A stretch of 41,011 nt of DNA from Actinomycetota bacterium (GTDB lineage: Bacteria > Actinomycetota > UBA4738 > HRBIN12): NCBI GenBank assembly GCA_021325015.1, contig JAJPHY010000141.1, forward strand, positions 1 to 41,011. The letters run 5' to 3'. Position 1 is the first letter of the stretch, and each line of letters starts with the position of its first letter. The notes under the pieces were generated by a model. That model saw only the letters and a list, made by a program, of their open reading frames with translations. It searched no databases and was not told where the DNA came from. Below, piece after piece: positions 7,906-26,550 of the stretch. Both the position numbers and the translations under genes were made by a program.

Positions 7906-7938
7906 TTGAGAGAATCACTGAACGTATAGTGCTATACT
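7906..7938 (+). promoter_or_regulatory. candidate promoter and palindromic operator of the molybdoenzyme operon
   Basis: An AT-rich island in GC-rich DNA contains the perfect inverted repeat GTATAG-TG-CTATAC (7924-7937). Two -10-like boxes, TATAGT (7925-7930) and TATACT (7933-7938), are embedded in it. A TTGAGA (7906-7911) upstream is 13 or 21 nt away, neither ideal, which would fit an activator-dependent or repressed promoter. The second box would give a leader of about 30 nt before the ATG at 7975. The bound regulator is unknown. Confidence 0.5.
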
Positions 7939-7974: not shown

Positions 7975-10900
7975 ATGGAACGGGTCTCCCGACGTGACTT
8001 CCTCAAGGTCGCCGGCGGGACCGCCGCCGGGGTGCTGGTCCTCGGGCAGGCCGGCCTCGCGCTTCGCAAGCTCGCGCCGGTCCAGGTCGTCAACCCCCTC
8101 GAGGCCTACCCGAACCGCGACTGGGAGCGCGTCTACCGCGATGAGTACCGGTACGACAGCTCGTTTGCCTACGTGTGCTCGCCGAACGACACGCACGCGT
8201 GCCGGATGCGCGCGTTCGTCCGCAACGGGGTCGTGACCCGGATCGAGCAGAACTACGACAGCGCGCGCGTGGCCGACGCGCTCGGCAACAAGGCCACGGC
8301 CCACTGGAACCCGCGGGGCTGCCCGAAGGGAATGACCTTGCAGCGGAGGGTGTACGGCCCGTACCGCCTTCGGTACCCGATGCTCCGTGCGGGATGGAAG
8401 CGGTGGGCAGACGACGGCTACCCGTACCTCACGCCGGAGCTCCGCGACCGCTACCGGTTCACCTCCAGGGGCACCGACACCTTCGTGCGAGTCTCATGGG
8501 ACGAGGTCTTCGGCTACGTGGCCCGGGCGATCGTGGCGACCGCCGCTCATTACAGCGGGGAGGAGGGCGCGAGGCGCCTCGCGGACGAGGGGTACGAGCC
8601 GGAGATGATCCAGGCCATGGCCGGCGCCGGGACGCGGACGATCAAGATGCGCGGTGGCATGGGTCTGCTAGGCGTCCTGGGCAAGTACGGCATGTACCGG
8701 TTCAACAACATGCTCGCGATCCTCGATGCACGAATCCGTGGCGTCGCCCCGGAACAAGCGCTCGGCGGCAGGAACTGGTCGAACTACACGTGGCACGGAG
8801 ACCAGGCGCCGGGGTTCCCGTTCGTCCACGGCCTGCAGAACTCCGACGTGGACCTCAACGACCTTCGCAACGCCGCGCTGCACATCCAGGTCGGGAAGAA
8901 CCTCGTGGAGAACAAGATGGCCGACTCCCACTGGTTCCACGAGGTCATGGAGCGGGGCGGCACCATCGTGGTCATCGCGCCCGAGTACAACCCGCCGGCC
9001 AGCAAGGCGGACTACTGGATCCCGGTGCGCCCGCAGACCGACGCCGCGCTGTTCCTGGGCATCACGAAGATCATGATCGACGAGGGCTGGTACGACCGAG
9101 ACTTCGTGACGCGGTTCACGGACCTGCCCCTTCTGATTCGGACCGACACCTTGCAGCGGCTGGATCCGGCCGACCTGTTCCCGGCCTACCGCAAGGGGCT
9201 CACGCCGGACGGGCCGAGCTTCGCGGAGCAGGGGCTCCTCCCGGAGGACTACGACCGGCTCCACGACTTCGTCGTGATCGACGCGAGGACGGGGCGGCCG
9301 GTCGCGATCACCCGCGACGACGTCGGCGACCGTCTGAAGGTCGAGCCCGCCCTGGAGGGCACCTATGAGCTCCACCTGCGCGACGGCTCGAGGATCGAGG
9401 CGATGACGCTGTTCGAAGCGTACCGGCGGCACCTGGCCGACTACGACCTCGACACCGTCGCCGAGATCACGAGATCGCCGAAGGAGAAGATCCTCCGGCT
9501 CGCGCGGGACATCTGGACGCACCGGCCGGTCGCAATCCACATAGGCGAGGGGATCAACCACTGGTTCCACGCCACGGAGGCCAACCGGGCGTTCCACCTG
9601 CCCCTCATGCTGACCGGCAACATCGGGGTCTCCGGAGGCGGATGCCACTCCTGGGCCGGGAACTACAAGTCGGCGCTGTTCCAGGAGACCGACTGGAGCG
9701 GGCCCGGCATCAACGGCTGGTTCTACGAGGACCCGTTCGCCCAGAACCTCGACGAGCACGCGGGTCCGAAGGAGATTGTGGTCTTCAAGCACGCGAAGGG
9801 CGAGGAGCCCGCCTACTGGAACCACGGTGAGGTGCCGCTGGTGGTCGACACGCCGAAGTACGGGCGGAAGATCTTCACGGGGCTCACGCACATGCCCACG
9901 CCCACGAAGATCCTGTGGTTCACGAACGTGAACCTGTTGAACAACGCGAAGCACGCCTACGACATGCTGTTCAACGTGAATCCGAAGATCGACATGATCG
10001 TCTCGCAGGACATCGAGATGACCTCGTCGTGCGAGTACGCGGACGTCGTCCTCGCCGCAAACTCGTGGATGGAGTTCGAGGGTTACGAGGTCACGGCGTC
10101 CTGCTCGAACCCGTTCCTGCAGGTCTGGAAGGGCGGGATCAAGCCGATCGGCGACACGAAGGACGACCTGGCGATCCTGGCCGGGGTGGCGAAGGCGCTC
10201 ACCGCCGAGACCGGCGATCAGCGGTTCGCGGACCACTGGAAGTTCGAGCTCGAGGGCAGGCGCGACGTGTACCTGCGTCGCTTGCTCGCTGGGTCGGCCA
10301 CGACGGCCGACTACGACTTCGACACCCTGATGGCCGGGGGGTACGGCGAGCCCGGCGTGGCGCTCATGATGTTCCGCACCTACCCGCGGATCCCGTTCTA
10401 CGAGCAGGTGCACGACAACCTGCCGTTCTTCACGGACACGGGCAGGTTGAACGCCTACTGCGATATCCCGGAGGCGATCGAGTACGGCGAGAACTTCATC
10501 GTCCACCGGGAGGGTCCCGAGGCCACGCCGTACCTGCCGAACGTCATCGTCTCGACGAACCCCTTGATCCGCCCCGACGACTACGGCATCCCCCTGGACG
10601 CGATGGGATGGGACGAGCGGACGGTCCGCAACGTGAAGATGTCGTGGTCGCAGGTGAAGCGGACGACGAACCCCCTGTGGAAGCAGGGGTTCCAGTTCTA
10701 CCTCGTGACACCGAAGCAGCGGCACAGCACGCACTCGTCGTGGGCCGTCACCGACTGGCATTTCATCTGGTCCAGCAACTATGCCGACCCCTACCGCACC
10801 GATGCCCGGCAGGCTGGGGTGGCCGAGCACCAGATCCACGTGAACCCGCAGGCCGCGATGGACCTGGGCATCGAGGAGGGCGACTACGTCTACGTGGACG

Positions 10901-11418
10901 CCAATCCGGCCGACCGCCCCTACCGGAACTGGAAGGCGGACGACCCTCGGTACAAGGTGGCACGCCTGATGCTCCGGGTGAAACTCAACCCCTCCTATCC
11001 CTACGACGTGGTGATGATCAAGCATGCCCCGTTCATCTCCACCGAGAAGACCGTGCGAGCGCACGAGACGCGGCCCGACGGGCTGGCCCGCTCCGAGGAC
11101 ACGGGGTACCAGGCGAGCTTCCGTTACGGGTCGCACCAGTCGCTCACGCGCGACTGGCTGATGCCGATGCACCAGACCGACAACCTCTTCCTCAAGTCCA
11201 AGGACGCCACCCACTTCGTCTTCGGTTACGAGCCGGACAACCACGCGGTGAACACCGTTCCGAAGGAGACCCTCGTGAAGCTCGCGTTCGCCGAGGCGGG
11301 CGGTCCCGGGGGAGTCGGCCGGTGGAACGCCGGTGCGAGCGGCCGGATGCCCGGCACGGAGGACGAGACGATGCTCGCCTATCTCGCCGGGGCCTTCGTG
11401 AGGAAGGTGGGGCCGTGA
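7975..11418 (+). CDS. type II DMSO-reductase-family molybdoenzyme, alpha subunit (nitrite oxidoreductase/nitrate reductase-like)
   Basis: A 1147-aa catalytic subunit carrying a Mo-bis-MGD cofactor and one FeS cluster. The N-terminus has a Tat signal (SRRDFLKVAGG, residues 5-15) with a hydrophobic stretch, so the folded enzyme should be exported. The FS0 cluster site reads C68-x3-D72-x3-C76 and C116 (RGCPKG), with Asp at the second ligand position, a pattern I associate with Nitrospira-type NXR. The expected Mo-ligand Asp is D276 in YTWHGDQAPG, the position of NarG's Asp ligand. Later family blocks include GKNLVENKMADSHWF, PVRPQTDAALFLG and GEGINHWFHATEANRAF. The length and the gene order with beta, TorD-like chaperone and heme-b gamma fit the type II group (NXR, NAR, chlorate, perchlorate and selenate reductases, DMS and ethylbenzene dehydrogenases). 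The substrate cannot be fixed by reading; NXR/NAR-like is the best resemblance. Confidence 0.88.
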   Translation: MERVSRRDFLKVAGGTAAGVLVLGQAGLALRKLAPVQVVNPLEAYPNRDWERVYRDEYRYDSSFAYVCSPNDTHACRMRAFVRNGVVTRIEQNYDSARVADALGNKATAHWNPRGCPKGMTLQRRVYGPYRLRYPMLRAGWKRWADDGYPYLTPELRDRYRFTSRGTDTFVRVSWDEVFGYVARAIVATAAHYSGEEGARRLADEGYEPEMIQAMAGAGTRTIKMRGGMGLLGVLGKYGMYRFNNMLAILDARIRGVAPEQALGGRNWSNYTWHGDQAPGFPFVHGLQNSDVDLNDLRNAALHIQVGKNLVENKMADSHWFHEVMERGGTIVVIAPEYNPPASKADYWIPVRPQTDAALFLGITKIMIDEGWYDRDFVTRFTDLPLLIRTDTLQRLDPADLFPAYRKGLTPDGPSFAEQGLLPEDYDRLHDFVVIDARTGRPVAITRDDVGDRLKVEPALEGTYELHLRDGSRIEAMTLFEAYRRHLADYDLDTVAEITRSPKEKILRLARDIWTHRPVAIHIGEGINHWFHATEANRAFHLPLMLTGNIGVSGGGCHSWAGNYKSALFQETDWSGPGINGWFYEDPFAQNLDEHAGPKEIVVFKHAKGEEPAYWNHGEVPLVVDTPKYGRKIFTGLTHMPTPTKILWFTNVNLLNNAKHAYDMLFNVNPKIDMIVSQDIEMTSSCEYADVVLAANSWMEFEGYEVTASCSNPFLQVWKGGIKPIGDTKDDLAILAGVAKALTAETGDQRFADHWKFELEGRRDVYLRRLLAGSATTADYDFDTLMAGGYGEPGVALMMFRTYPRIPFYEQVHDNLPFFTDTGRLNAYCDIPEAIEYGENFIVHREGPEATPYLPNVIVSTNPLIRPDDYGIPLDAMGWDERTVRNVKMSWSQVKRTTNPLWKQGFQFYLVTPKQRHSTHSSWAVTDWHFIWSSNYADPYRTDARQAGVAEHQIHVNPQAAMDLGIEEGDYVYVDANPADRPYRNWKADDPRYKVARLMLRVKLNPSYPYDVVMIKHAPFISTEKTVRAHETRPDGLARSEDTGYQASFRYGSHQSLTRDWLMPMHQTDNLFLKSKDATHFVFGYEPDNHAVNTVPKETLVKLAFAEAGGPGGVGRWNAGASGRMPGTEDETMLAYLAGAFVRKVGP

Positions 11419-11690
11419 GCCCGAACAACGACGCGACGCCGGAGGACCCCCTCGAGATCGTCGGCGTGGTGCTGGAGCGACCGATGGACGAGCGGTCGAT
11501 CCACGAGATGGCGAGGACGTTCGTGGAGGAGTATGCGCTCATGGGCTGGGGCCCCCGGAGAATCCTCGAACTGTTCCGCCGTCCGTTCTACGCCGGGGCC
11601 CACGACGCGTACGAGCGGCTGGGCGAGGATCGCATCCGGGCGCTGATCGCCGACACCTTCGGCTCCGACCAGGAGCGGCTCGATGCCTGA
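11415..11690 (+). CDS. small conserved-looking protein between alpha and beta subunit genes
   Basis: A 91-aa soluble protein that I do not recognise as a named family. It starts with GTG overlapping the alpha stop (GTGA) and ends 8 bases inside the beta gene, so it is coupled on both sides and is surely part of the operon. It lacks a signal peptide, membrane segment and cysteines. The sequence is acidic and mostly helical, with a central block YALMGWGPRRILELFRRPFY followed by DAYERLGEDRIRALI. I have an impression of similar small proteins near other molybdoenzyme genes, but cannot name them. Possible roles are assembly factor or small extra subunit (inference). Confidence 0.8.
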   Translation: MSPNNDATPEDPLEIVGVVLERPMDERSIHEMARTFVEEYALMGWGPRRILELFRRPFYAGAHDAYERLGEDRIRALIADTFGSDQERLDA

Positions 11691-12945
11691 CGTCTTCAAC
11701 TGGCAGCTCGGCCGGGCGATGGGATACCGGTTCCCGGCCGCCTACCCCAAGCGGCAGTTCGCCTTCGTCTTCAACATCAACCGGTGCCTGGCCTGCCAGA
11801 CGTGCACGATGGCCTGCAAGTCGACCTGGACCTTCTCCGAGGGCCAGGAGTACATGTGGTGGAACAACGTCGAGACCAAACCCTACGGGGGGTACCCGCA
11901 GGGGTGGGACGTGAAGACCCTCGCCCTGCTCGAGCAGGCCAACCCCGGCGGGCAGGTCTGGGACGCACGCCCCGCCGGAAGACCGGGGAGCATCTACGGG
12001 GTGTTCAAGGGCCAGACGATCTTCGAGGCTGCCCAGGCCAAGGGCGGACAGGAGCAGGCCCTCGGGTACCTCCCCACCGATGAGGAGTATCGATCCCCCA
12101 ACATCTACGAGGACACCGCGAGGGGCCGGCGGGGCGAGCCGGGGGTCTACGGAATGGGCACCTCGCTCCCGGAGCACACGACCTGGTTCTTCTACCTGCA
12201 GCGCCTCTGCAACCACTGCAGCTACCCCGCGTGCCTGGCGGCGTGTCCACGCAACGCGATCTACAAGCGGCCCGAGGACGGTATCGTCCTGATCGACCAG
12301 GCGCGGTGCCGCGGCTACCGCAAGTGCGTGGAGCAGTGCCCCTACAAGAAGCCGATGTACCGGGCGACCACGCGCGTCTCCGAAAAGTGCATCGGTTGCT
12401 ACCCCCGGGTGGAGGGGACCGACCCGCTGACCGAGGGAATCCCGATGGAGACCAGGTGCATGGCCGTGTGCCCCGGGAAGATCCGGATGCAGGGGCTCGT
12501 CGAAATCGACCCGCGCACCGGCGACTGGAAGCCCGATCCCGAGAACCCCCTCTACTACCTGGTCAAGGAGTCGAAGGTCGCCCTGCCGCTGTACCCGCAG
12601 TTCGGAACGCAACCGAACGGCTACTACATCCCGCCGAGGTGGGTGCCGCGTGAGTACCTGGAGCAGATGTTCGGCCCCGGCGTCGAGCACGCGATCGAGC
12701 AGTACCTGGCCCCGCCCCGCGAGCTGCTGGCCGTGCTCCAGCTGTTCCGGGCGACCCAGCGGATCATCTTCAAGTTCGAGATCCGCAAGGGGCCCAAGGT
12801 CCGCGACGTCGTCATCGGCGGGCGGAAGTGGTCGATGTACAACGACACGGTCATCGGCTACGACTCGGCCGGCAACGAGGTGGCCAACCTCTCGGTCGTG
12901 GAGCCGATGTACGTGCGCCCCAGGAAGTACCTGAACTCGATCTGA
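11683..12945 (+). CDS. type II DMSO-reductase-family beta subunit, iron-sulfur electron transfer protein (NxrB/NarH-like)
   Basis: A 420-aa ferredoxin-type subunit that passes electrons between alpha and gamma. Four cluster-binding groups are visible: C35-x2-C38-x2-C41-x3-C45, C176-x2-C179-x4-C184-x3-C188, C209-x5-C215-x3-C219 followed by PYKKPMY, and C236-x2-C239 with later RCMAVC. In the third group the usual second Cys is replaced by Tyr (CRGYRKC); in NarH the same place is Trp and the cluster is 3Fe-4S, so one 3Fe-4S plus three 4Fe-4S clusters are expected. The blocks YMWWNNVETKPYGGYPQGWD and EKCIGCYPRVEG are typical of the NXR/chlorate/ethylbenzene branch. There is no signal peptide, so export would be by hitchhiking with alpha. 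AGGAG lies about 7 nt before the ATG. Confidence 0.92.
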   Translation: MPDVFNWQLGRAMGYRFPAAYPKRQFAFVFNINRCLACQTCTMACKSTWTFSEGQEYMWWNNVETKPYGGYPQGWDVKTLALLEQANPGGQVWDARPAGRPGSIYGVFKGQTIFEAAQAKGGQEQALGYLPTDEEYRSPNIYEDTARGRRGEPGVYGMGTSLPEHTTWFFYLQRLCNHCSYPACLAACPRNAIYKRPEDGIVLIDQARCRGYRKCVEQCPYKKPMYRATTRVSEKCIGCYPRVEGTDPLTEGIPMETRCMAVCPGKIRMQGLVEIDPRTGDWKPDPENPLYYLVKESKVALPLYPQFGTQPNGYYIPPRWVPREYLEQMFGPGVEHAIEQYLAPPRELLAVLQLFRATQRIIFKFEIRKGPKVRDVVIGGRKWSMYNDTVIGYDSAGNEVANLSVVEPMYVRPRKYLNSI

Positions 12946-12955
12946 GGTTGCCAGG

Positions 12956-13687
12956 GTGGACACGAGCCTTCGCGACGCGGTGACCGAGGCGAACGACGGG
13001 CTCGCCCGCAGCGCCGTGTACCGGCTGCTCGCCCAGGTCCTGTCCTACCCAACGCCGGCCGGCGTGGAGCAGCTCCTCGAGGAGGACGTGCCGCTCGCCC
13101 TCGCGCTGGCGCCGATCCTGTCCGGTCCGGTGGGAACGCTCGTGGCGGATCTCGCGGCGGCACTCGAGGGCGTGACCCGGGAGGCCCTCGAGCGCGCCTA
13201 CCTCACGGCGTTCACGCACGTCCACTCGGCGGACTGTTCGCTCTACGAGACCGACTACACGGCCGCGCGGGTGTGGCGACAGAGCCAGGAGCTCGCCGAT
13301 CTCGGTGGCTTCTACCGGGCATTCGGAGTCGAGGAGCGGATGGAGCGGCCGGACCACGTGGCGGTGGAACTCGAGTTCCTTCACCTGCTCGCGTACAAGG
13401 CGGCGTGGGCGGCCGCCACCCACGACCGCGAGCACGTGCGCACGTGCGAGCGGGCACGGGAGGCCTTCCTCGCCGACCACGCGCTGCGCTGGATGCCCGG
13501 ACTCCTCGAGCGGCTGGAGGTCCTCGGGGCGGGCGGCCCCTACGCGGCCGTGGCCCGCCTCGCCCGGCGATTCCTCTCCGACGAGGCGGCGCGGTTCGGG
13601 CTGCGGACCGACGCGGGCCCCACGCCGACGCCGGCGGCGCACGAAGGCGAGGCGGAGGGGGATCCGGCCCTGTGCGAAGGGGAGTGA
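12956..13687 (+). CDS. TorD/NarJ-family molybdoenzyme chaperone
   Basis: A 243-aa, largely helical cytosolic protein. Family-type features are RSAVYRLLAQVLSYPTP near the N-terminus, the block LYETDYTAARVWRQSQELADLGGFYRAFG, then HVAVELEFLHLLAYKAAWA. Such chaperones bind the Tat signal and the apo catalytic subunit, and hold back export until the Mo cofactor is inserted. Its place between beta and gamma parallels NarJ in narGHJI and the D protein of the ebd, ddh and clr operons. GTG at 12956, 10 nt after the beta stop; the stop overlaps the gamma ATG by one base. The C-terminal 25 residues are a low-complexity tail. Confidence 0.87.
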   Translation: MDTSLRDAVTEANDGLARSAVYRLLAQVLSYPTPAGVEQLLEEDVPLALALAPILSGPVGTLVADLAAALEGVTREALERAYLTAFTHVHSADCSLYETDYTAARVWRQSQELADLGGFYRAFGVEERMERPDHVAVELEFLHLLAYKAAWAAATHDREHVRTCERAREAFLADHALRWMPGLLERLEVLGAGGPYAAVARLARRFLSDEAARFGLRTDAGPTPTPAAHEGEAEGDPALCEGE

Positions 13688-14667
13688 TGAACAGGGTCGG
13701 TGGGAAGACGGTCGCGGTCATGGCCCTCGCGGTCGGGCTCGCAGGCGTCCTGACGCTGTCCGGGACGCGAATGGCCGCCTCCCAGGGGACCGTCCTCACC
13801 GCCGCGAAGACCGACCGCGTGGTGCCGGTGACCGAGCCCTGGTCCTCGTTTTGGAACCGCGTTCCGAAGGTGAGCATTCCGCTGTCGGCCCAGCAGGTCA
13901 CGCCCCCGATGGGCGGCCACCGGTGGACGCTCGAGGCCCGCGCCGTGCAGGATGGGGAAAGGCTCTACATCGAGCTCGAATGGGCAGATCCCACGCCGAA
14001 TCGGTCCGTGGCCGCCCCCCAGCTGTTCACGGATGCCGCGGCGATCGAGTTCCCATCGGTCGCCGCCACGAGCGTGCCGGCGCTGTGCATGGGCGACCCG
14101 AATGCGACCGTGAACATCTGGCAGTGGAAGGCCGCATGGCAGGCGGACGTTCACCGCGGCTTCCAGGGGGGCGTACGGCACCGTTACCCGAACGCGGACG
14201 TGGACGGGTATCCGTTCCACGAGGACCCGGCCTTCTCCCCCGGGCGGTACGTGGACAACCCGTTCTCCGCGACGGACCGAACCTCGCCCGTGGACAACCT
14301 CGTGGCCGGTGGCTTCGGCACGCTGACCGCCGACCCCGCGCCGGTGGTGCAGGGCTGGGGCGCCTGGCGTGACGGGACGTGGCGGGTCGTGTTCTCGCGC
14401 CCGCTCGCCGTGGGACGCGAGGGCAACGTCGAGCTCGGGCCCGACGACTGGACCGACGTCGCGTTCGCCGTGTGGGACGGGGCCGCCGACGAGCGGGACG
14501 GGATGAAGTCGGTGTCGAGCTTCGTGGCGCTCGACGTCTCGCCCAAGCCAATGCCTTGGGGGCCCGGCTTCCCGTACTGGCCGGCCCCCTTCTTCGTGTT
14601 CCTCGCGCTGTGGGCCGGTTTCGCCTGGATGGTGATCGGGCACTTGCCGGGGAAGGGGCGGACGTGA
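13687..14667 (+). CDS. heme-b gamma subunit, ethylbenzene dehydrogenase-type (NxrC/EbdC-like)
   Basis: A 326-aa exported protein of the EB_dh heme-binding family. An N-terminal Sec-type signal (residues about 1-33, hydrophobic VAVMALAVGLAGVLTLSG, AAS-Q cleavage region) is followed by the beta-sandwich domain with LYIELEWADPTPN, VNIWQWKAAWQ, NLVAGGFGTLT, GWGAWRDGTWRVVFSRPL and MKSVSSFVAL. In EbdC and DdhC a Met and a Lys bind the heme; M135 (LCMGDP) and K274 (GMKSVSS) are the candidates here. Unlike soluble EbdC, it ends in a transmembrane helix (about residues 300-320, WPAPFFVFLALWAGFAWMVI), so the complex would be anchored on the outer face of the membrane. The stop overlaps the next gene (GTGA). 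Confidence 0.85.
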   Translation: MNRVGGKTVAVMALAVGLAGVLTLSGTRMAASQGTVLTAAKTDRVVPVTEPWSSFWNRVPKVSIPLSAQQVTPPMGGHRWTLEARAVQDGERLYIELEWADPTPNRSVAAPQLFTDAAAIEFPSVAATSVPALCMGDPNATVNIWQWKAAWQADVHRGFQGGVRHRYPNADVDGYPFHEDPAFSPGRYVDNPFSATDRTSPVDNLVAGGFGTLTADPAPVVQGWGAWRDGTWRVVFSRPLAVGREGNVELGPDDWTDVAFAVWDGAADERDGMKSVSSFVALDVSPKPMPWGPGFPYWPAPFFVFLALWAGFAWMVIGHLPGKGRT

Positions 14668-15722
14668 TCGCCCGGGAGCGGGAGCCGGAACTTCAGCCGG
14701 CCGTCGAGGGCAGCGCGACGGTCGCGTGGACGCCGCTCGCTGCGGTGCTCACGCTGCTGCCGGTCGCCGCACTCGCTGAGCTGTTCCTCGTCCGCACCTT
14801 CTACCGGGTCGGTATCTACATTCCGAAGGAGGGTCCGTTCCGGACCATCTACCGGACGCTCACCGGGATCGGGTCGTTCGCCCTGAACCTCTCGTCCGTG
14901 CTCGCGTTGGCGGCCCTCGCGATGTTGGTCGGTCGCTCGTGGGCGCGCGGCCTGCGGGCGGCGGCCCTCGCGCTCGGCGCGTTCACGGCGGTCTCGCTCC
15001 TGCTCGCCCGGGCGGGCCCCTCGGAGTTCGGACCGACGGCGCGCGCGGCGTTCTCGCTGGCGGTGGTGGTGGTCGCCTGGCCCTTCGTGCGAGGCGGCGC
15101 CGGGTGGTGGCACCGCGTGGCGGTCGGCGGCGTCGCCGTCTCGGCGCTCCTGTCGTCCTACGCGGGTCTGGTCGGCGACGCCGGGCGATTGGTCCCGGCG
15201 GCGAACGGTCCCGGGGGCGCGGTCGGCGCGCAGCTTGTGGGCGAGGCGCTCGTGGTGGCCACGGCGTTCGCGTTCTGCACGGCGTGGGCGTCGTCGGACG
15301 GACTGCGGTTGCGGCCACTGTTGGTGGGGCTCGGGCCGGCGCTCGCGCTGATCGTCGCCTGGCGGGCCAACGGAGCGGTCACGGGGATCCTCGTGCTCTG
15401 GACCGCAGGGCTGCGCCTGTACCTGCCCGTCTGGGCGTACGCGGGCGCGCTGTGGGCGTTCTCGTCGGCGGCGATCGGGTGGCTGCCCCGACACGGGTGG
15501 CGGAGCGCGGGTCTCGCCCTGCTGCTCGTCGCGGGGATGGCCCTGGACTCGACCTACCTGCAAGCTCTGGCGCTCGTGGCACTCGTCCTGCTCACCGACG
15601 GCTCGGCACTGGGCGGGCTCCCGGAGCGGCCGTCTCAACATGGGGCCACGATCGGCTCGATCGCGCCGCGGACGGGGCGATTGACCGACCGAGCCGACAG
15701 GCGTGTCGGTGCCCGCGCCTAG
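14664..15722 (+). CDS. uncharacterised multi-pass membrane protein at the end of the molybdoenzyme operon
   Basis: A 352-aa integral membrane protein with about ten hydrophobic segments, the first at residues 24-43 and the last ending near residue 315, then a polar tail of about 35 residues. I do not recognise the family. It does not look like NarI (no pairs of His in helices to bind two hemes) nor clearly like NrfD/PsrC. Translational coupling to the gamma gene (GTG at 14664, GTGA overlap) argues that it works with the complex, for instance as a quinone-reactive or anchoring subunit, or a transporter for the substrate or product (inference). The last codons also contain the uvrB promoter. 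GC-rich bias could exaggerate the helix count. Confidence 0.75.
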   Translation: MIAREREPELQPAVEGSATVAWTPLAAVLTLLPVAALAELFLVRTFYRVGIYIPKEGPFRTIYRTLTGIGSFALNLSSVLALAALAMLVGRSWARGLRAAALALGAFTAVSLLLARAGPSEFGPTARAAFSLAVVVVAWPFVRGGAGWWHRVAVGGVAVSALLSSYAGLVGDAGRLVPAANGPGGAVGAQLVGEALVVATAFAFCTAWASSDGLRLRPLLVGLGPALALIVAWRANGAVTGILVLWTAGLRLYLPVWAYAGALWAFSSAAIGWLPRHGWRSAGLALLLVAGMALDSTYLQALALVALVLLTDGSALGGLPERPSQHGATIGSIAPRTGRLTDRADRRVGARA

Positions 15723-24549: not shown

Positions 24550-24559
24550 CGTGGGTTGC

Positions 24560-24565
24560 TAGGAT
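24560..24565 (+). promoter_or_regulatory. candidate -10 box for the cupredoxin lipoprotein
   Basis: TAGGAT ends 11 nt before the ATG at 24577; TTGACG at 24546-24551 is only 8 nt upstream of it, too near for a normal -35. The leader would be about 5 nt. Confidence 0.3.
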
Positions 24566-24576
24566 TGCGGCCGCTC

Positions 24577-26550
24577 ATGTCCAGGAGGCTCCTCGCGGTC
24601 GCGTTCGCCCTCGGGCTCGTGGCCGCCGCGTGCTCGAAGCCGCCGCAGGTGAGCGTCACGTTCGGGTCGGGGAGCGAGTTCGTCCCGCAGGTCGCCGACT
24701 TCCTCGACAACGTCGGGCTGGGGTCCTCGGTCGCCGTCGGGGCCGACGGCACGCCCTACGTCGCGTACTTCGGGTTCCCGCAGGAGGTGCCGAAGGGCCA
24801 GGTCGCGACGCCGCGCCCCATCGGCTCGCCGTCGGTCCCGGGCGTGCTGCTCGCGAGCGTGAAGGGCGGGATCTGGACGCGAGGGACGGTGGCCATGCAG
24901 GCGCAGATCCCCGTCGTCTCGATCCCGTTCGGACCCGCGATCGTCCCGCAGGTGGGCTCGATGACCCCGCAGAACGTGAACGGCACGGCGATCGCCGTCG
25001 ACGGCTCCGGGGGGCTCCACGTGGCTTGGGCGGCCGACACCGGGCTGTGGTACGCGTCGAACGCCGGCGGGTCGTTCTCGGCCGACCGCGTGTACAAGAT
25101 CTCGCCGGCGCTGACGGCCGCCGGTCCGCTCGGGGCGCCGTCGGTCGCCGTCGGCTCCGACGGCGCGCCCTGGCTGGCGTACATGGTGACCACGGCCACG
25201 GGGCAGGAGGTCCGCGTCGCCACCAAGACCGCTGGCTGGGCCACCGAGGTCGCCGCCACCGTCCCGCTCACGCCCGGCGGCCCTCAGCCGGGCAGGACCG
25301 AGGTCGCGCTCTCGAACGGCCGCCCGGTCGTCGTCTACTCGGACGGAGCGAGCGTGCTCGCCGCGACCAAGGCTGGCTCGGGACGGCGGGCGTGGTCGAC
25401 CCACACGGTTGAGAGCGGCGCCGACGGCGTCGGGTTGTCGCTCGCGACGGCGACCGACGGCACGATCCACGTCGCCTACTACGCGGGCTCCGAGATCCAC
25501 GAGGCGACGTCCAGGGACGGCGCCTCGTGGCAGGTCACCAAGGTCGCCGACGTCGGGTCCGGGCAGAACGAGGCCGGCCGGAGCACCGGAGTGGCCGTCG
25601 ACTCGAGCGGCACCGTCTACGTGACGTGGTACGACCCCGGAACGGACAGCGTGCAGCTCGCGGCCGCGTCCGGCGGGCAGTTCCAGCCGGTCGCCGTACA
25701 GGACACCGCGGGGGGCGACCTCCCCTCGCTCGGTGTGACGGGCGACGGGTCCGCGGTGTACGTGGCCTGGTACGACGAGGTCGATCAGAACCTCATGCTC
25801 GGCACCTACGGAAGCGTCTCGAGCCTCGAGCTCGCCGTCCCCAGCCCGACCCCGACCGGCGCCCCCACGTCCGCGCCGTCCCCCTCCACGCAGTGCACCC
25901 AAGCCCAGAACGGCACCGTGGCGGTCACGGCCTCCGGCATCGCGTTCGACACGAGCTGCATCGAGGTCCCGGCAGGGCAGCCGTTCACGATCGCGTTCGA
26001 CAACAAGGACGCCGGGATCCCGCACAACGTCGCGATCTACCCGAGCGCCACCCAGCTCACGCCGGCCGACGCGCTGTTTCAGGGTGAGGTCGTGACCGGG
26101 CCCACGACCGTCGACTACAAGGTTCCCGCGCTGAAGCCCGGCACCTATTACTTCCACTGTGACATCCACCCCACCACGATGAACGGCACCTTCAAGGTGG
26201 TCACCTCGGGCGGAGCCGGCGGCGGCACCTCCACCGGCGGCGGCACCGGGGGCGGGGGAGGGTTCACGACGGCCGTCACGGCCTCGGGCATGGCCTTCGA
26301 CGTGAGCACGATCACGCTGAAGGCCAACACGGCCACCACGATCACGTTCGACAACAAGGACGCCGGGATCCCCCACAACATCGCGATCTACCCGAGCTCG
26401 AGCGAGCTCACGTCCCCGCTGTTCCGGGGCGACATCGTCACCGGGCCGGCCACGGCCCGGTACGAGATCCCGCCGCTCAAGCCCGGGACCTACTACTTCC
26501 AGTGCGACGTCCATCCCATGACGATGAACGGCCAGGTGATCGTGAAGTAG
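24577..26550 (+). CDS. lipoprotein with sialidase-like repeats and two tandem type-1 copper (cupredoxin) domains
   Basis: A 657-aa extracytoplasmic lipoprotein. The signal peptide ends in lipobox VAAAC (Cys19). Residues about 30-430 hold repeated blocks such as VAVGADGTPYVAY, AVDGSGGLHVAWAAD and VAVDSSGTVYVTWYD, which suggest a beta-propeller of the BNR/sialidase-like kind. A Pro/Ser/Thr linker leads to cupredoxin 1 (about 444-541) with copper ligands H483, C528, H531, M535, then a Gly-rich linker and cupredoxin 2 (about 566-657) with H600, C643, H646 and M648 or M650. The two copper domains are near-identical around DNKDAGIPHN, even at DNA level (25989-26045 and 26341-26397), so the duplication looks recent. 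Function unknown; electron carrier, copper sensor or copper binding are possible. It lies between uvrA and uvrC, which looks like insertion into a repair locus. Confidence 0.85.
   Translation: MSRRLLAVAFALGLVAAACSKPPQVSVTFGSGSEFVPQVADFLDNVGLGSSVAVGADGTPYVAYFGFPQEVPKGQVATPRPIGSPSVPGVLLASVKGGIWTRGTVAMQAQIPVVSIPFGPAIVPQVGSMTPQNVNGTAIAVDGSGGLHVAWAADTGLWYASNAGGSFSADRVYKISPALTAAGPLGAPSVAVGSDGAPWLAYMVTTATGQEVRVATKTAGWATEVAATVPLTPGGPQPGRTEVALSNGRPVVVYSDGASVLAATKAGSGRRAWSTHTVESGADGVGLSLATATDGTIHVAYYAGSEIHEATSRDGASWQVTKVADVGSGQNEAGRSTGVAVDSSGTVYVTWYDPGTDSVQLAAASGGQFQPVAVQDTAGGDLPSLGVTGDGSAVYVAWYDEVDQNLMLGTYGSVSSLELAVPSPTPTGAPTSAPSPSTQCTQAQNGTVAVTASGIAFDTSCIEVPAGQPFTIAFDNKDAGIPHNVAIYPSATQLTPADALFQGEVVTGPTTVDYKVPALKPGTYYFHCDIHPTTMNGTFKVVTSGGAGGGTSTGGGTGGGGGFTTAVTASGMAFDVSTITLKANTATTITFDNKDAGIPHNIAIYPSSSELTSPLFRGDIVTGPATARYEIPPLKPGTYYFQCDVHPMTMNGQVIVK

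Follow-up and report, generated by a model that had tools for sequence, protein, structure and literature searches.

An operon for an exported-type NXR and two conserved unclassified proteins in an uncultured order of Actinomycetota

Introduction

The locus described here raises the question of which reaction its outward-facing molybdoenzyme would serve, and what two proteins of no recognised family contribute to it. Nearly all nitrate formed biologically is the work of NXR, and to our knowledge the anammox complex is the only NXR with a solved structure. The window, that is, the whole stretch of DNA analysed (41,011 nt), belongs to a genome of an uncultured order of Actinomycetota. An initial annotation made from the letters alone described an NXR/NAR-like enzyme that may oxidise nitrite or reduce nitrate on the outer face of the membrane. 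Here we report that, as judged from its sequence, the enzyme is a member of the exported NXR clade (canonical NXR), a family already known, here in a host of which little is known. What is new is that two conserved unclassified proteins accompany NXR, one of them (p91) across many phyla.

Operon organization and integrity

Six open reading frames lie on one strand between positions 7975 and 15722 of the window. Neighbours overlap by a few bases or are separated by gaps of about 10 nt.

7975..11418, + strand: alpha, nxrA-like catalytic subunit, 1147 aa, with Tat signal, FS0 and Mo-bisMGD site
11415..11690, + strand: p91, unclassified family, 91 aa; GTG start, 4-nt overlap with alpha
11683..12945, + strand: beta, nxrB-like, 420 aa, four Fe-S groups; ATG start, 8-nt overlap with p91
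12956..13687, + strand: TorD/NarJ-like assembly chaperone (Pfam/NCBIfam)
13684..14667, + strand: gamma, nxrC-like, EB_dh heme-b domain; start GTG at 13684 or ATG at 13687
14664..15722, + strand: TM, unclassified family, ten predicted helices; GTG start, 4-nt overlap with gamma

The six-gene layout with overlapping or tightly spaced starts is thus as first described, and the match of the operon features to that description is far beyond chance. No dedicated cytochrome c gene is present within the operon. An inverted repeat, TATAG-TG-CTATA, lies at 7925-7936 of the window, about 40 bases 5' of the alpha start; no sigma-70-like promoter match was found around it, and promoter and Rfam scans returned nothing useful.

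The genome is a metagenome-type assembly of 169 contigs, which was searched by family and read in selected stretches, and the alpha gene was found in only 3 of the 27 genomes searched in the order. Both facts would be compatible with a binning artefact or a decayed or non-functional copy. Against this, the operon is placed mid-contig, its GC and GC3 are equal to those of the flanks, and uvrB begins 9 nt downstream. The UvrB tree groups this protein with Actinomycetota, as the initial annotation had supposed of the genome. All reading frames and ligands are intact, and third codon positions are the most divergent ones in alpha, beta and p91. Alpha was also found, independently, in two further genera of the order, where it is 82% and 74% identical. 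We consider an artefact or a dead copy the least probable of the explanations weighed here. UvrB identities within the order were 86% and 85% (partial). Since the alpha identities are no higher than these, old inheritance with losses would fit alpha better than recent spread.

Cofactor ligands and export signals

Residues 5-11 of alpha form the Tat motif SRRDFLK, and the Pfam TAT_signal match (E=1e-4) reached 22.4 bits, 0.3 bits below the 22.7-bit cut-off. Among NXR-type alphas with residues at the site, Arg was found at position 6 in 77/77 and at position 7 in 76/77. The FS0 ligands are C68, D72, C76 and C116 (three Cys and one Asp). D72 aligns with Asp71 of the Kuenenia enzyme, N71 with Asn70, and the Mo ligand D276 with Asp275. 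The Tat signal, the Asp as second FS0 ligand and Asp276 as Mo ligand had all been read from the sequence at the outset, and each of them held. In the NXR-type alphas that cover these positions, D276 was conserved in 78/78, N71 in 77/77 and D72 in 70/77, the other seven having Cys. Gln277 was present in 78/78; the sister group, NarG and other type II alphas have Leu or Trp there. On this alignment, the Asp-Gln pair 276-277 is a clade-specific signature.

Alpha is 63% identical to Kuenenia NxrA (PDB 7b04) over the full length (1706 bits). The best non-NXR match in the search of solved structures, 4ydd, which we take to be perchlorate reductase, a type II enzyme, scored 196 bits. Pfam and NCBIfam searches assigned alpha to Molybdopterin and gave 350 bits for TIGR03479 (curated cut-off 985) and 190 bits for the ethylbenzene dehydrogenase alpha model (cut-off 2000). 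No NCBIfam equivalog cut-off was reached by alpha, beta, the chaperone or gamma.

Beta matched Pfam Fe-S families and, below its curated cut-off, TIGR03478; its best structure match was the Kuenenia NXR complex (607 bits). Its 15 Cys fall into four groups and are kept in 99-100% of 70 homologues, and Tyr212 in the third group is present in 70/70, in agreement with the four groups and the Tyr noticed earlier. Beta carries no signal. The chaperone, named TorD-like from the start, matched Nitrate_red_del (Pfam) and TIGR03482 (E=1e-25, 90.6 bits, under the curated cut-off of 152.3).

Gamma matched EB_dh in Pfam (6.5e-31) and TIGR03477 below its curated cut-off, and its best structure match was again Kuenenia NXR (99 bits). 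An N-terminal signal-like helix and a single C-terminal hydrophobic helix were found, and no CxxCH motif. The EB_dh match and the C-terminal membrane helix agree with the membrane-anchored heme-b subunit proposed before. The gamma heme ligands Met136 and Lys275 align with Kuenenia Met155 and Lys305, with Met in 58 and Lys in 60 of the 61 rows of the gamma alignment. The passages of PMC8387239 on Kuenenia NXR give Asp275 as Mo ligand, Asn70 at the substrate, three Cys and Asp71 at FS0, and Met155 and Lys305 as heme b ligands of NXR-C, where this pair is considered partly responsible for the high redox potential. All five of these residues, Asp71, Asn70, Asp275, Met155 and Lys305, are kept in the window proteins.

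Phylogenetic position

The contig scan returned 80 NXR-type relatives of alpha with 53-82% identity. They come from Actinomycetota, Chloroflexota, Planctomycetota (anammox bacteria included), Verrucomicrobiota, Nitrospinota, Armatimonadota, Methylomirabilota, Omnitrophota, Elusimicrobiota, Neomarinimicrobiota, an archaeon and others. In the trees the NXR clade was monophyletic (100/100), with the window alpha inside and NarG and type II alphas outside, the latter being those of relatives, not the named Ebd/Ddh/Ser/Clr/Pcr enzymes. NxrA of Kuenenia, Brocadia and Nitrospinota fell inside; Nitrospira NxrA was absent from the loci sampled. The phylogeny proposed with the initial annotation therefore places alpha, as far as alpha is concerned, with exported NXR and not in a group with another proven substrate.

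This placement bears on whether the enzyme acts on another type II substrate (chlorate, perchlorate, selenate, dimethyl sulfide or a hydrocarbon). The TorD chaperone and the EB_dh gamma are common to the type II DMSO reductase family and would suit such an enzyme. Alpha nevertheless lies in the clade of Kuenenia NXR, outside the type II alphas of relatives; its matches to Ebd/Ddh/Ser/Clr/Pcr-type models stay below the cut-offs, it retains the NXR active-site residues, and it carries the clade-specific Asp-Gln signature. Another type II substrate is therefore very improbable, if slightly less so than an artefact. Nor is alpha of the NarG type, having C68 and D72 rather than His and Cys.

Within the clade, the window alpha grouped with other members of its order (support 97-100), apart from the Acidimicrobiia branch. 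The deeper neighbour of this branch was the Dehalococcoidia locus L034 (82/87) in one tree and a different one in another. The idea of a new branch is borne out to the extent that alpha forms a separate branch of the NXR clade. As to the rarity of the enzyme in actinobacteria, the branch is separate and canonical NXR occurs in 5/397 Actinomycetota genomes sampled; it is not unique, as Acidimicrobiia and relatives carry the NXR type. The sister of the clade is a group of 42-43% identity from three Actinomycetota. Its loci L155, L156 and L157 (G352, G210 and G301) encode the sister enzyme with beta, gamma and TorD, and p91 and TM are absent from them.

Three further observations were made on the sampled loci. 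The alphas of L030 and L027, from an 'Acidimicrobiaceae' and a Chloroflexi assembly, are very close (total path about 0.2), which reflects horizontal transfer or a binning error. Locus L064, labelled Akkermansia muciniphila, has an NXR operon of the kind usual in uncultured Verrucomicrobiota, and the label looks wrong. Genomes of the same family (L010 and L011 in G007 and G015; G010 contig 95) also encode a distinct type II DMSO reductase alpha of about 840 aa, 35% identical to the window alpha.

The p91 family

p91 is small, acidic and all-helical, with no signal peptide and no Cys. A search with 34 members found no Pfam or NCBIfam family, giving only isolated weak matches of single members; there was no PDB sequence match, and Foldseek found no similar PDB fold at E<=0.001. 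In the model, which is confident (pLDDT 86.9), an extended N-terminus leads into four main helices. All aligned members share D11, P12, F54 and G70.

Profile search placed p91 beside alpha or beta in 55/80 NXR-type loci of more than 10 phyla. The usual site is between alpha and beta; in L072 p91 precedes beta and alpha lies downstream. The 25 loci without p91 comprise 20 of the anammox branch, Hydrothermarchaeum, one Armatimonadetes locus near these two in the tree, and three alphas cut by contig ends. Where visible, gene order in the anammox branch is gamma-beta-TorD-alpha. p91 was also absent elsewhere in the genomes searched, namely seven of anammox type, Hydrothermarchaeum, the Armatimonadetes genome and two of the sister group. 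Nitrospira NxrA loci are outside the sample of this survey. Among 397 Actinomycetota, p91 was found in four, all with canonical NXR, and in none of the 392 without it; in the fifth NXR genome, G017, the alpha gene is truncated at a contig end. Passages on NXR from the literature, supplements aside, contain no mention of p91.

As p91 lacks signal and Cys and is net acidic, we favour, by a small measure, a role as a cytosolic alpha-beta assembly factor. A small exported subunit comes next and is doubtful. We tentatively suggest, at less than even odds, that p91 is essential in most NXRs, that anammox bacteria have lost or replaced it, and that members of the order are true aerobic nitrite oxidisers with TM as a new partner.

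The TM protein

For TM, neither a Pfam/NCBIfam family nor a Foldseek match at E<=0.001 was obtained; the model (pLDDT 82.8) has ten helices. TM occurs in exactly the five NXR genomes and in no other of the 397 Actinomycetota. In G017, from another family of the order, the TM contig reads beta-TorD-gamma-TM, the same order as in the window. Outside Actinomycetota, some loci of Chloroflexota and Armatimonadota have TM after gamma, and TM also accompanies NXR in Hydrothermarchaeum. In the genomes searched, p91 and TM were found only together with an NXR-type enzyme. Both proteins, unrecognised at first sight, remain outside Pfam and NCBIfam families and are yet conserved in other loci. A match of gamma to CbsA suggested Sulfolobus CbsB as a counterpart of TM; no CbsB match appeared, and this candidate was rejected. 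As a guess, TM might be a membrane platform for gamma.

Genome context

The initial annotation had named absence of Mo-cofactor synthesis genes as evidence against its reading and had proposed a search for oxidases, nitrite reductases and CO2 fixation. MoaA, and with it Mo-cofactor synthesis, is present. So are a complex I operon and two CoxA/CoxB sets, hence two cytochrome c oxidases; one CoxB (L133) carries a fused cytochrome c domain and the other (L136 350-1411, contig 92 of the host genome, G000) an extra C-terminal cupredoxin-like stretch. A NirK-like copper nitrite reductase with a C-terminal cupredoxin (L163 2518-4008, contig 71) scored 203 bits, below the NCBIfam cut-off of 296; a similar match was seen in G017. 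The search for CO2 fixation gave no RuBisCO in the genome and two POR_N matches, which are insufficient evidence for a reductive TCA cycle.

Three other matches were set aside. That on contig 162 proved to be the complex I subunit NuoG rather than NarG; that on contig 49 had its best score with assimilatory nitrate reductase NasC but did not reach the cut-off; that on contig 32 looks like formate dehydrogenase with an in-frame TGA. In the latter (L021, about 11937-13211) the TGA is at the presumed active site of the alpha, and a NuoE-like gene follows. The codon is likely selenocysteine, and several relatives show the same pattern. A secreted lipoprotein-like protein at 24556-26550 of the window has two C-terminal cupredoxin domains (amicyanin/plastocyanin matches) and is a possible electron carrier with no link to the operon.

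Proposed function

We put the probability at about 0.7 that the operon encodes a canonical outward-facing NXR of an aerobic actinobacterium that oxidises nitrite in vivo. Alpha, carrying Mo-bisMGD and FS0, would be assembled together with beta in the cytosol by TorD and probably p91, and the two would leave as one through Tat on the signal of alpha, beta hitch-hiking. Gamma would be exported separately, carry a high-potential heme b (Met/Lys) and be anchored beside TM through its C-terminal helix. Nitrite would be converted to nitrate at the outward-facing Mo site, and electrons would pass from FS0 through the beta Fe-S clusters and gamma heme b to an outer-face cytochrome c or cupredoxin, and on to cytochrome c oxidase.

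Family, ligands and export signals support the early suggestion of nitrite oxidation or nitrate reduction on the outer membrane face. Because Kuenenia NXR is bidirectional and also reduces nitrate, according to passages of PMC8387239, we infer the net direction from the aerobic setting and the high-potential heme, which make aerobic nitrite oxidation the most likely role. Against this reading stand the missing RuBisCO match and the lack of a dedicated cytochrome c gene in the operon. The enzyme could instead be mainly an outward-facing respiratory nitrate reductase. In that case gamma would hand electrons of the quinone pool or of cytochrome c on to nitrate, and the nitrite formed would be converted to NO by the NirK-like protein. 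The clade as drawn in PMC10732223 includes organisms treated in its relevant passages as nitrate reducers, direction being left unassigned there for similar Planctomycetota sequences, and TM could route electrons from the membrane. A Met/Lys heme b of high potential is, however, poorly suited to quinol, the operon has no NarI-like diheme subunit gene (Pfam/NCBIfam), and no His that could bind heme is conserved in all TM members. The two cytochrome c oxidases, together with complex I, suggest an aerobic way of life. We regard nitrate reduction as unlikely, and nitrite oxidation as the preferred reading.

With nitrite oxidation preferred, an uncultured order of Actinomycetota gains, through this operon, a credible potential for nitrite oxidation. 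Should p91 prove to be part of most other NXRs, their expression or reconstitution without it may fail, and p91 and the Asp-Gln motif would serve as metagenome markers that separate NXR from look-alike reductases.

Comparison with known systems

NarGHI belongs to the same superfamily and shares the FS0/Mo-Asp framework; unlike the window alpha, NarG has His at the first FS0 ligand and Cys where NXR has Asp. Kuenenia NXR-ABC (PDB 7b04) has the same FS0 Asp, substrate Asn, Mo Asp and gamma heme ligands as the window proteins. The Kuenenia and other anammox loci differ from the window in their order, gamma-beta-TorD-alpha, and have no detectable p91 or TM. Passages of PMC8387239 describe the Kuenenia complex in the soluble fraction and in tubules with NXR-T, whereas the window gamma has a C-terminal membrane helix.

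For Nitrospina gracilis and relatives, passages of PMC3578206 report a Tat-exported NxrA, an NxrB without signal and the order A-B-C, as in the window; the gammas are predicted there to be soluble or anchored by other helices, and p91 is not mentioned in those passages. The Nitrospinota loci L044 and L045 have p91 between A and B, as in the window, and unlike it no TM was found in them. The loci from Acidimicrobiia and other Actinomycetota (L065, L069, L070, L085 and L093) have the same alpha-p91-beta-TorD-gamma order with TM. Their alphas are 57-60% identical to that of the window and belong to another branch, the Acidimicrobiia branch being sister to Gammaproteobacteria and Planctomycetota sequences.
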